This document shows, piece after piece, positions 17,732-29,776 of a stretch of DNA of 29,776 nt. The notes beneath the pieces are model-generated. The model had not been told where the DNA came from. It made no database searches and worked only from the letters and a program-made list of their open reading frames with translations. The stretch is from a virus. The DNA lies in IMG/VR virus record IMGVR_UViG_3300032086_003302, positions 1 to 29,776 of that record; one strand, 5' to 3'. Both the position numbers and the translations under genes were made by a program. Each line of letters opens with the position of its first letter. Positions within the stretch are counted from its first letter, which is position 1.

Positions 17732-18229
17732 ATGAAGAAAAGGGTAAAGGGTATATTAGCAATTGTTGCAAAATGGACAGGGTTTAAATGGGCAGCAGAC
17801 TTCCTAAAAAAATATGGAATCGATGCTCTCCTGGCACTACTCATATTTAACTTCCCAATGTATGCAGTTGCATTTATTCCTGATCCAGGTTTTCAAACAT
17901 TCGCACTTGGTTGGACAGCATTTTGGTGGGGACTTGGTGCCCTAACACCTGGATGGTTAGTCACAATCTTACTCGCATTATTTATTCGATGGTTACGCGG
18001 TTGGTTAGTACAGGCATACCTAGATGTCAAAGAGGCATTTAGAAAATTACAACTACAAAACCAACTGTCGGTTTACCTAACAAGTGAAGAGATTGATATG
18101 ATACTCGAGATGGCGAAGAAGGTAGAATTCCAAAGTGAAGGTAAAAGAAAAGAATTTAGAGAGAAACTAAGAAAAGAAAGACTACAAATGATTGACGATC
18201 AATGGACAAAGGAGGCAAACAAAGGATGA
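17732..18229 (+). CDS. Membrane protein, holin candidate
   Basis: 165-residue protein with a hydrophobic N-terminal half: likely membrane segments at about residues 29-48 and 56-90 (the second may be two short helices around GALTPGW), with tryptophans at the borders. The C-terminal half is a charged amphipathic helix region (about 95-160) that would face the cytoplasm. Two or three membrane segments with a charged tail fit a holin, but no endolysin is nearby to support it. The ribosome site is weak (TTAGG), so it may be translated by coupling to the previous gene, which ends one base before. It overlaps the next start as ATGA. Confidence 0.68.
   Translation: MKKRVKGILAIVAKWTGFKWAADFLKKYGIDALLALLIFNFPMYAVAFIPDPGFQTFALGWTAFWWGLGALTPGWLVTILLALFIRWLRGWLVQAYLDVKEAFRKLQLQNQLSVYLTSEEIDMILEMAKKVEFQSEGKRKEFREKLRKERLQMIDDQWTKEANKG
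18208..18215 (+). promoter_or_regulatory. Ribosome binding site deciding the start of the HPr-like gene
   Basis: AAAGGAGG inside the end of the preceding gene, 10 bases before ATG 18226. It supports that start over the in-frame ATG at 18202, which has no such site and would put this sequence inside the coding region. Confidence 0.65.
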
Positions 18230-18432
18230 ATTATATGCACAGTCGATTAGCTATTAGTATTATAATGGAAGCACAAAAATCAAAAAAGCTAGTTTATTTA
18301 AAAAAAGGTTTCATTCAAGTAGATGCTAAATCTATCCTAGGTGTGATGTCACTTGTAGATGTAGAGAATGTTGAAGTTATAACAGAGGATAAGGAAGTGT
18401 TACAAAAAATAAAAAAAATATTGGAGGGTTAG
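18226..18432 (+). CDS. HPr-like protein (PTS phosphocarrier family)
   Basis: 68-residue protein with the two diagnostic HPr sites. HSRLA at residues 5-9 corresponds to the HPr active-site H-A-R-P-A (His15 and Arg17), and DAKSILGVMSL at 33-43 corresponds to the Ser46 region (x-KSIMGVMSL). The His-to-Ser distance is 31 residues, exactly as between His15 and Ser46 in Bacillus HPr. The remaining pattern fits the HPr fold: helix after the His, strand KLVYLKKGFIQV, helix at the Ser, strand NVEVIT and a final helix. The first strand of HPr is missing with this start, and the Pro after Arg is Leu. HPr normally carries phosphate from Enzyme I and, when Ser-phosphorylated, controls carbon metabolism; here it may act as a mimic, decoy or virion protein. 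Confidence 0.78.
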   Translation: MNYMHSRLAISIIMEAQKSKKLVYLKKGFIQVDAKSILGVMSLVDVENVEVITEDKEVLQKIKKILEG

Positions 18433-18436
18433 AAAG

Positions 18437-18544
18437 ATGCCAAAAGGAATCGGATACGGAAAAAAAGCTGTAGCAAAATACGGTAAAAAGAAAGTCGAAG
18501 AGATGAAGAAGAAAAAAGCAAAGAAAAAAAGAGGTAAAAAATAA
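18437..18544 (+). CDS. Tiny lysine-rich protein, 35 aa
   Basis: 35-residue protein; by count 16 Lys and 1 Arg, about half of all residues. It starts MPKGIGYGKKAVAKYG and ends in long lysine runs. GGAGGG at 18423-18428 lies 8 bases before the ATG, and its TAA shares a base with the ATG of the next gene, so translation is likely despite its size. Such a peptide would bind nucleic acid or acidic surfaces. It may be a DNA-condensing virion component; no family was recognised with certainty. Confidence 0.65.
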   Translation: MPKGIGYGKKAVAKYGKKKVEEMKKKKAKKKRGKK

Positions 18545-18825
18545 TGCCTAGTAAAAAAGATCCTAGACTTGCTCGTGCAGGAGTATCAGGATATAACAAA
18601 CCAAAGCGTACACCCTCGCATCCCACAAAATCACATATTGTTGTGGCTAAAAGTGGTGAACAAGTAAAAACAATTCGCTTTGGACAACAAGGGGTATCAA
18701 CAGCAGGTAAGAAAAAAGATGCCAAGTCTAATGCTAGAAGAAAATCATTTAAAGCAAGACACGCAAAAAACATAGCAAAAGGAAAAATGTCAGCAGCATA
18801 CTGGGCAAATAAGGTCAAATGGTGA
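18544..18825 (+). CDS. Small basic phage protein (DUF6321-like)
   Basis: 93-residue protein, about 27% Lys+Arg. Visible blocks: DPRLARAGVSGYNKPKRTP at the N-terminus, SHIVVAKSGEQVKTIRFGQQG in the middle (a short strand pair) and a basic C-terminal helix ending MSAAYWANKVKW. From memory this matches a small conserved protein of many aquatic phages annotated as DUF6321; the domain number should be checked. AGAGGT precedes the ATG, which overlaps the previous stop. Function is unknown; the charge and conserved form suggest binding to DNA or RNA. Confidence 0.78.
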   Translation: MPSKKDPRLARAGVSGYNKPKRTPSHPTKSHIVVAKSGEQVKTIRFGQQGVSTAGKKKDAKSNARRKSFKARHAKNIAKGKMSAAYWANKVKW

Positions 18826-18835
18826 GGTGATATAA

Positions 18836-18994
18836 ATGGCTAAACGAGGATTATACGCGAATATACACGCGAAAAGAAGACGAATCAAAGCAGGTAGTGG
18901 AGAAAAAATGAGAAAACCAGGAAGTAAAGGTGCGCCTACAGCGGCAAACTTTAAGAGGGCAGCAAAAACTGCTAAGAAAAGAAGAAAGAGGTGA
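18836..18994 (+). CDS. Small arginine/lysine-rich protein, 52 aa
   Basis: 52-residue protein with 20 Lys+Arg (38% by count). It begins MAKRGLYANIHAKRRRIKAG and contains MRKPGSKGAPTA before a basic helix. I recall similar MAKRGLYANI proteins from marine phages, without known function. GAGGTGATAT lies just before the ATG. Third of three consecutive very basic proteins, which suggests a shared job such as DNA packing in the virion or binding host nucleic acid. Confidence 0.72.
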   Translation: MAKRGLYANIHAKRRRIKAGSGEKMRKPGSKGAPTAANFKRAAKTAKKRRKR

Positions 18995-18998
18995 TTAG

Positions 18999-19892
18999 AT
19001 GGCAACTAAAATATTAGTTCGAAGAGGTCTTGAAGCAGATCTTGATTCACAAACTTTAGATGAAGGTGAATTAGGTTTTACAACTGATGGTCTTGATTTA
19101 TATATAGGTTCAGATAATTCTTCAGTAACAGAAGGTTTTATTAAAATAAATCAAACTAATCGTATTGAGTATGATGGAACTGCTTTGACTTCAGCAACAG
19201 ACACAGATAATTTAAAAGAAGTTATCCAAAATCTTGATGCTGCATTAAAAGCAGAACAAGACGGTGTAGATTGGAAACTACTAGTAGAAGTAAATTCAGA
19301 TAATGTGAGTTCTTTATTGCTTAATTCCACATTAAACTCAGCAATCACTTTTGACAATACAAACTACGATTACAAATTTGTTGTTGATGCTTATACAAAT
19401 TTAGCAGATGTTTCTGGTTCATTTACAATAAGATTAGAAGACGACTCAACAGCAGGAAAACATTCAAGCCTTAGACAAATTGCAAAAATGGAATCAACTG
19501 GATCATCAAGTGTTACAGGTGGTAATGAAGGAAACACAGGAGATTCAATTGATACAGGTCTTGTATTAAACACAGGTTCTCAAGGGAATCAAACTTTACT
19601 ACAATCTGAATTTGTTATATCAAAAGGTTTAGCATTTGCAACAGATACAAATATAAATGCTGATGTACATCCTTACATTGTTCGTGGTTCAGGAAGTATT
19701 GTAGGTGCAGAAACAACAGGACAAGCAAGTTCAACAGTATCATACAGTACACAATCAACATTCTCAGGAAGTTATTCCAAAGGTGTAGCTACAGGAGCTT
19801 CAGGAAATTTAACAAGTGTTCGTATATTTAACTTACCAGACGCTGGTTCAGTTGATAAAGTAAAGGTAAGAATTTATAAAAGAGTACGATAG
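18999..19892 (+). CDS. Fibre-like protein with phage GELGF-type N-terminal module
   Basis: 297-residue protein. The N-terminus (KILVRRGLEADL, then LDEGELGFTTDGLDLYIG, about residues 4-37) matches the short module found at the start of many phage fibres and virion-bound adhesins (R-R-G ... L-x-EGELGF-x-T-D ... L-x-IG). The remainder is Ser/Thr/Gly-rich and beta-type, with a stretch of Ser/Gly repeats near 155-195 and a strand-rich C-terminus. AGAGGTGAT lies just upstream. It is probably a second surface adhesin on head or tail, distinct from the long fibre; its attachment site is unknown. Confidence 0.75.
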   Translation: MATKILVRRGLEADLDSQTLDEGELGFTTDGLDLYIGSDNSSVTEGFIKINQTNRIEYDGTALTSATDTDNLKEVIQNLDAALKAEQDGVDWKLLVEVNSDNVSSLLLNSTLNSAITFDNTNYDYKFVVDAYTNLADVSGSFTIRLEDDSTAGKHSSLRQIAKMESTGSSSVTGGNEGNTGDSIDTGLVLNTGSQGNQTLLQSEFVISKGLAFATDTNINADVHPYIVRGSGSIVGAETTGQASSTVSYSTQSTFSGSYSKGVATGASGNLTSVRIFNLPDAGSVDKVKVRIYKRVR

Positions 19893-28432: not shown

Positions 28433-29776
28433 TTACGCCTCACAAACTGCACAGCTTTCAATTACAGCCTTTTTACGCGATAATACTTGCGCCTGGCTCA
28501 TACTGTACTGATAATATAATGATTTGATACCCATTCCGTGCGCATACATATATAACGCATTGATTTCTTTCACTGGCATATCTGGTGGTATCATCAGATT
28601 CAGTGACTGTGCTTGATCTAAATACTCTTGTCTTACAGACGCTTGGTCTACAATTGTATATGGACTAATTTCAGCAAATGTTTTAAATACTGCTTTGATT
28701 TCATCACTCATAAATTCTAGATGCTGTACAGATCCATCTGCTAATCTTATAGACTCCCACACTTCTGGTGTATCTTTACCTATAGATTGTAGGTGTTTTT
28801 TAAGATACGGATTTTTTATTGTTACTTTTGTTTTAGACAAGTCTTTAACATAATAGTTAGAGAACTCAGGTTCGATGGACTGAGATACTTGACCTAAAAT
28901 AAATGATGATGATTTTGTTGGTGCAATTGCCATTAGTGTTGTATTTCTACGACCATAACCTTTTAAGACTTCTGGTTCGCCAAACATTTGTGCAAGTCTT
29001 ACAGATGCTGCGTGTGTTTTCTCTTTGATTACCTGCGCCATCTCCATATTTTTTGCAGCGGCGTCTCTGCCTTCAAACGAGAATAGATGTGATTGTAAAA
29101 ATGAGTGCCAACCCAAGACTCCGATACCGAGTGCGCGGTGTCGTTTAGCAAAATTATGCGCTCTTTCATAATATTTTTTACCCTCTGTTTTCTTTATAAA
29201 TTCTGTTACCACCGTGTCTAGGAACATTGTTAATGTCTCCACCGCATCTGTCTCCTTTATTTCATCCCAGTGTAACAAGTTAATTGATGATAACACACAA
29301 GTAAAAGTCTCATCTGGACTTGAAGGCAATGCAATCTCACTGCACATATTACTTGCATAAATAGTCATATCTTTATCTTTATACACTTGTGGTTTATTTT
29401 TATTTACATTATCTGCAAACATTATGTAAGGAAAACCAACCTCACTTCTTCTTTTTAATACTTTTGCCCACAGTTTTCTAGCTTCTCTATCACCGTTAAA
29501 TACACGCTGTATAAATTCACTAGTGACTGTGATACCTGTAGTCAATCCTTGTATTGGATTACCTTCTGTGGCAATATCTAAGAACTCTTCAGCATCAGGA
29601 TGCTCAATAGGTAGATACGCACTAAAATATCCTCTACGCACATTGCCCTGAGAAATAACATTAGCTAGTGTATCAAAGAGTTGCATAAAATGCACTGCAC
29701 CATTCGATTCACCACTGTTTGTAATTTTAGAACCACGAGGTCTAAGCTCACCAAAGTAACCTGATGTACCTCCACC
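28433..29776 (-). CDS. nrdA: Ribonucleoside-diphosphate reductase alpha subunit, class I, 5' end outside window
   Basis: C-terminal 447 residues of the catalytic subunit that reduces ribonucleotides to deoxyribonucleotides for phage DNA synthesis. The frame is open to the window edge, where GGGTSGYFGELRPRG is visible, so the start is outside. Catalytic NMCSEIALP gives the Asn, Cys and Glu of the radical site. CVLSSINL carries the second redox cysteine. The radical-transfer tyrosine pair is in KSLYYQYS. The C-terminus SCAVCEA provides the CxxC pair that takes electrons from thioredoxin or glutaredoxin. This tail and the YY pair point to class I rather than class II or III. A small subunit is expected outside the window. 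Confidence 0.93.
   Translation of the reverse strand, partial: GGGTSGYFGELRPRGSKITNSGESNGAVHFMQLFDTLANVISQGNVRRGYFSAYLPIEHPDAEEFLDIATEGNPIQGLTTGITVTSEFIQRVFNGDREARKLWAKVLKRRSEVGFPYIMFADNVNKNKPQVYKDKDMTIYASNMCSEIALPSSPDETFTCVLSSINLLHWDEIKETDAVETLTMFLDTVVTEFIKKTEGKKYYERAHNFAKRHRALGIGVLGWHSFLQSHLFSFEGRDAAAKNMEMAQVIKEKTHAASVRLAQMFGEPEVLKGYGRRNTTLMAIAPTKSSSFILGQVSQSIEPEFSNYYVKDLSKTKVTIKNPYLKKHLQSIGKDTPEVWESIRLADGSVQHLEFMSDEIKAVFKTFAEISPYTIVDQASVRQEYLDQAQSLNLMIPPDMPVKEINALYMYAHGMGIKSLYYQYSMSQAQVLSRKKAVIESCAVCEA

Follow-up and report, generated by a model that had tools for sequence, protein, structure and literature searches.

In Bacillota, the bacteria in which HprK and CcpA operate, HPr acts as the central switch for both sugar uptake and catabolite repression. 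Its helix-2 patch around Ser46 contacts Enzyme I and EIIA too, and the helix-1 face, around residues 15–24, also takes part in the binding of Enzyme I. The described protein closest to the one studied here, by sequence and by Foldseek, is Bacillus subtilis Crh (PDB 1mo1, 1mu4, 1k1c), which is devoid of His15 and binds CcpA once the HPr kinase has phosphorylated it on Ser46 (PMC9631020). We analysed a viral stretch of 29,776 nucleotides (IMG/VR record IMGVR_UViG_3300032086_003302, hereafter the window) that encodes a small HPr-like protein. Like Crh, this protein is predicted to have the HPr fold and retains the Ser46 helix KSIxGxMSL, and neither Crh nor the phage family consists of dependable His15 phosphocarriers. 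It differs from Crh in being phage-encoded, in lacking strand 1, in its length (68 vs 85 amino acids) and in the replacement of Pro18; position 15 is H, N or D in the phage family vs Gln in Crh, and Arg17 is often lost in the phage family. The window copy shares with HPr itself (PtsH, PF00381) the His, Arg and Ser at positions 15, 17 and 46, but it has neither strand 1 nor Pro18, its His15 and Arg17 are unconserved in relatives, and it scores 30.5 bits against the NCBIfam HPr family model TIGR01003, below the cut-off of 47.9. The features of the locus are collected in Table 1.

Table 1. Position of the features discussed, in the window unless a contig or locus is named
Feature	Position	Strand	Remarks
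165-aa protein	17732..18229	+	two likely membrane helices (read from sequence), charged C-terminal tail
Shine-Dalgarno AAAGGAGG of HPr-like gene	18209..18216	+	within end of upstream gene; from sequence
HPr-like gene	18226-18432	+	68 aa; translation MNYMHSRLAISIIMEAQKSKKLVYLKKGFIQVDAKSILGVMSLVDVENVEVITEDKEVLQKIKKILEG; without HPr strand 1
Codons for DAKSILGVMSL (residues 33-43), Ser46 helix-2 patch	18322..18354	+	residues 33-40 invariant in family
35-aa very basic small protein	18437..18544	+	directly 3' of HPr-like gene
93-aa basic protein, phrog_7595	18544..18825	+	frequent in marine phages, whether or not these carry the HPr-like gene
52-aa basic protein, phrog_16028	18836..18994	+	
297-aa protein with Mtd_N (major tropism determinant N-terminal) domain	18999-19892		
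Class I ribonucleotide reductase (RNR) large subunit	28433-29695	-	91% identical to that of G001
548-aa BMP/PnrA-like substrate-binding lipoprotein, L168 (G001, contig 3300025151_000114)	25091-26737 (oriented)	-	strand relative to HPr-like gene; extra C-terminal domain; unusual phage cargo
81-94-aa membrane genes of relatives	L014:2346-2606; L016:2799-3062; equivalents		mostly with out-of-frame 43-49-aa membrane ORF near start

The initial annotation had read an HPr-like protein from this ORF, with a His15/Arg17 site and a Ser46 site (KSILGVMSL) at the exact HPr distance of 31 residues and with the first strand and the Pro after Arg missing, and it had named a Pfam PTS-HPr search and a structure prediction overlaid on HPr as the checks to make. 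The ORF is present and translates as described, and both checks came out in its favour. Against Pfam the protein matches one family only, PTS-HPr, at E=2.6e-6 and 27.8 bits, which is above the curated gathering score of 23 that defines PF00381, and the same model is matched by 12/12 aligned family members (E<=0.01). The best solved structures by sequence are those of Bacillus Crh, and the family profile matches Crh/HPr structures at E about 1e-8 (Crh, E=1.4e-8). An AlphaFold model obtained with the family alignment (pLDDT 87) shows the beta-alpha-beta-beta-alpha-beta-alpha order of HPr minus strand 1; Foldseek returns Crh 1mo1 as its best match, and a structural aligner places residues 1–68 on HPr 11–83 (Z up to 9.7, rmsd 1.7 A, 67 residues), with His5, Arg7 and Ser36 at the places of His15, Arg17 and Ser46, so that the His5–Ser36 spacing equals that of His15 and Ser46 in HPr. 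Profiles and model together indicate that the protein is a true HPr homologue, a chance resemblance being ruled out by the Pfam match, the family profile, the fold and the dN/dS values. Matches to Synechococcus phage scaffold proteins (E=5) were dismissed as noise, and gut 'Bacteriophage sp.' matches (H1, H17 and H18) were set aside as ordinary host HPr carrying GLHARPA, a host contamination; H19 gave an equally weak match.

The ORF is a real gene, having a strong ribosome-binding site and being under purifying selection. Its start ATG at 18226 shares bases with the stop codon of the 165-aa gene that precedes it, a GGAGG-type element is also found 5' of the gene in several relatives, and dN/dS against relatives is about 0.1–0.2 in most comparisons. 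The phage context claimed by the initial annotation extends to these relatives: in IMG/VR, 12 contigs carry close relatives, which amount to 11 distinct proteins (two contigs have identical copies), 46–69% identical to the window protein, and the carriers are uncultured phages, mostly marine or estuarine.

We aligned 12 distinct proteins, window copy included, using HPr position numbering. Position 15 is His in 7/12, Asn in 4/12 and Asp in 1/12; position 17 is Arg in 5/12, Gly in 4/12, Asp in 2/12 and Lys in 1/12; position 18 is Leu in 9/12, Ile in 3/12 and never Pro. The His15-x-Arg17-Pro18 signature of a functional PtsH is not shared by the family. The His15/Arg17 site of the initial annotation does exist in the window copy, but this copy is the only one of the 12 that has both residues, and the pair is unconserved in the family. 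The Ser46 site fares differently from the catalytic one, as positions 43–50 (DAKSILGV) are invariant in all 12 proteins. The Ser46 motif had been part of the search pattern of the scans, and this bias was checked by using neighbour genes as bait. With the 165-aa gene, whose product is 73–92% identical in seven other phage contigs, 7/7 contigs carry the HPr-like gene with the motif intact (for locus L069, the HPr-like gene was counted on the same contig as L015). With the small membrane gene found downstream, 10/10 contigs with a complete upstream region carry the gene and its motif, and two more contigs are cut by the contig end and keep the HPr tail. The conserved Ser46 helix, a hallmark of Crh, is therefore also present in contigs found without the motif, while the other hallmark, the loss of the catalytic His15, is seen in 5/12 members only and not in the window copy. 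The same small-membrane-gene bait found two more distant phages with the TerL / small membrane protein layout that are devoid of the HPr-like gene, and because of these the gene looks accessory in its phage group rather than structural.

In the window, a fibre gene is followed by the genes for a product of 120 aa, the 165-aa membrane protein, the HPr-like protein and the products of 35 aa (basic), 93 aa and 52 aa (basic), in this order. In most relatives the HPr-like gene lies between TerL and portal, and an 81–94-aa single-membrane-helix protein is usually encoded immediately 3' of it; contig G006 carries both the HPr-like and the 165-aa genes, at separate loci. The 93-aa gene used as bait yielded no further HPr-like gene among 80 loci fetched, and this gene is, judged from its distribution, generic and not tied to the HPr-like gene. 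The relatives' 165-, 93- and 52-aa products are mostly 67–94% identical to those of the window (57% for the 52-aa product of one relative), with figures of about 40% for TerL, 22% for portal and 25% for MCP. Synonymous sites of the three neighbour genes are near saturation (pS 0.52–0.69), which rules out recent transfer as the source of this identity and points to constraint, not recency. The AlphaFold model of the 165-aa membrane protein was set aside (pLDDT 56), and PADLOC defence models gave no match. The 81–94-aa membrane genes of the relatives and the out-of-frame ORF near their start (Table 1) are a possible overlapping gene pair.

The host can be approached through several genes. The window TerL is 37% identical to those of two Paenibacillus larvae phages, the next matches being at about 25%; the DNA polymerase of the relative G001 is 41% identical to the same Paenibacillus phages, followed by Bacillus phages at 35%; and for the window RNR the nearest sequences are those of Staphylococcus phages. 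A Bacillota host is likely for these phages on this ground. The BMP lipoprotein of G001 gave no host assignment, its best Bacilli matches being at about 40%. The portal and capsid genes of the window and G001 are only about 21–34% identical, and the contrast with their RNR genes (Table 1) denotes, at the level of the sequences compared, strong module mosaicism.

The initial annotation had envisaged three roles: competition for Enzyme I or HPr kinase, a Crh-like co-repressor, or a small structural protein. The role that fits best is that of a Crh-like co-repressor or a ligand of HprK, given a Ser46 patch that never varies and a His15, Arg17 and Pro18 that do. For the group as a whole, the protein probably rewires, decoys or blocks sugar control in the host and is not there to carry phosphate. 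Accordingly worded, our preferred reading, to which we give a probability of about 0.4, is that of a phage-carried truncated HPr paralogue that would work like Crh, as a ligand or decoy of HprK/CcpA and not as a phosphocarrier; it is favoured because the Ser46 face is kept while the catalytic face drifts. Beyond homology, fold and conservation, we infer the following steps: the phage protein would present its Ser46/helix-2 surface to the host HPr kinase/phosphorylase and its partner CcpA (or to another helix-2 partner), Ser36 would be the phosphorylation target, and host carbon control would be shifted, or HprK sequestered, during infection, in a direction that we can only presume, all of which would require a Bacillota host with HprK. 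Further support comes from a separate His-less type of protein in unrelated phages that keeps the same Ser46 motif (see below). Several observations stand against this Crh-like reading: 7/12 members have His at position 15, including the window copy, Arg17 is frequently missing, the phage contigs encode no HprK, and the host is known by its lineage only. In addition, the helix-2 patch also touches Enzyme I and EIIA, and its conservation is thus not specific evidence for HprK.

This last point opens the way to a decoy of the PTS itself, docking on Enzyme I or EIIA via the helix-2 patch with no phosphate passed, which would slow sugar uptake in infection or block superinfecting phages that enter via PTS components. 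The invariant helix-2 surface with relaxed catalytic residues would suit such a decoy, as would the small membrane-protein genes that adjoin the gene in the window and relatives, one of which weakly resembles SieB superinfection exclusion; however, this match is below threshold (E=0.0063, 16.6 bits for a cut-off of 26) and may reflect membrane-helix similarity only, the helix-1 face (residues 15–24) varies in the phage family, and no EI/EII gene was identified near the HPr-like gene, so that we regard a PTS decoy as unlikely. The helix-2 surface could instead serve another host partner or regulator, leaving sugar control untouched. HPr does bind non-PTS partners, and complexes with Rsd, glycogen phosphorylase and a fructose regulator are among the fold matches of the model, but there is no direct sign of such partners in the inferred host, and this explanation seems to us rather improbable. 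Recruitment of the HPr fold as a structural, packaging or membrane-docking part, acting together with the membrane and basic proteins encoded next to it, would agree with the position of the gene, which in the window is surrounded by late genes and in relatives lies between TerL and portal. It is disfavoured by the two relatives that have the TerL / small membrane protein layout and not the gene, and by the different loci that the gene occupies in different genomes, and it leaves the invariance of an HprK/CcpA-type surface unexplained; we consider it improbable. Finally, a functional mini-HPr, phosphorylated at His5 by the Enzyme I of the host, could be proposed from the window copy, with its catalytic pair and its Pfam score above threshold. 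Such a phosphate-accepting competitor for Enzyme I is disfavoured for the family, in which His15 is replaced by Asn or Asp in 5/12, Arg17 is lost in 7/12 and Pro18 in 12/12; with the low TIGR01003 score and the missing strand 1, an active phosphocarrier is very unlikely.

The second, His-less type of HPr-like protein occurs in unrelated, mostly larger, gut phages, namely the IMG/VR contigs of loci L152, L153, L155 and L161 and the isolated Enterocloster phages CB473P1, CB457P1/P2, CB473P2/P3 and PMBT24. Like the window family, it is phage-borne, non-catalytic at position 15 and keeps DAKSI[LM]G; unlike it, it has the N-terminal strand (by sequence) and no LA pair at positions 18–19, and it is only 21–29% identical overall to the window protein. 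A wider proposal, which we hold more tentatively than the Crh-like reading, is that a minimal strand-1-less HPr manipulates carbon catabolite control, its Ser46/helix-2 surface capturing HprK or CcpA or its open sheet edge taking a strand of host HPr, and that non-catalytic HPr paralogues may have been taken up to this same end by unrelated lineages, each on its own. That HPr-like proteins recur in phages of unrelated lineages suggests a strategy of general use, and if the family retains no more than the regulatory face of HPr, it would offer direct access to the way in which phages reset the carbon metabolism of their hosts. The initial annotation knew of no described phage HPr. A search of the open-licence literature for published accounts of an HPr or Crh from a phage yielded none, which is not proof of absence, and the PMBT24 paper makes no mention of its HPr-like protein. 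The initial annotation is nevertheless right only in part, as phage HPr-domain entries exist in databases: the PMBT24 protein is already deposited as 'phosphocarrier protein', and BFVD has another three entries from metagenomic phages whose names refer to HPr or CcpA.
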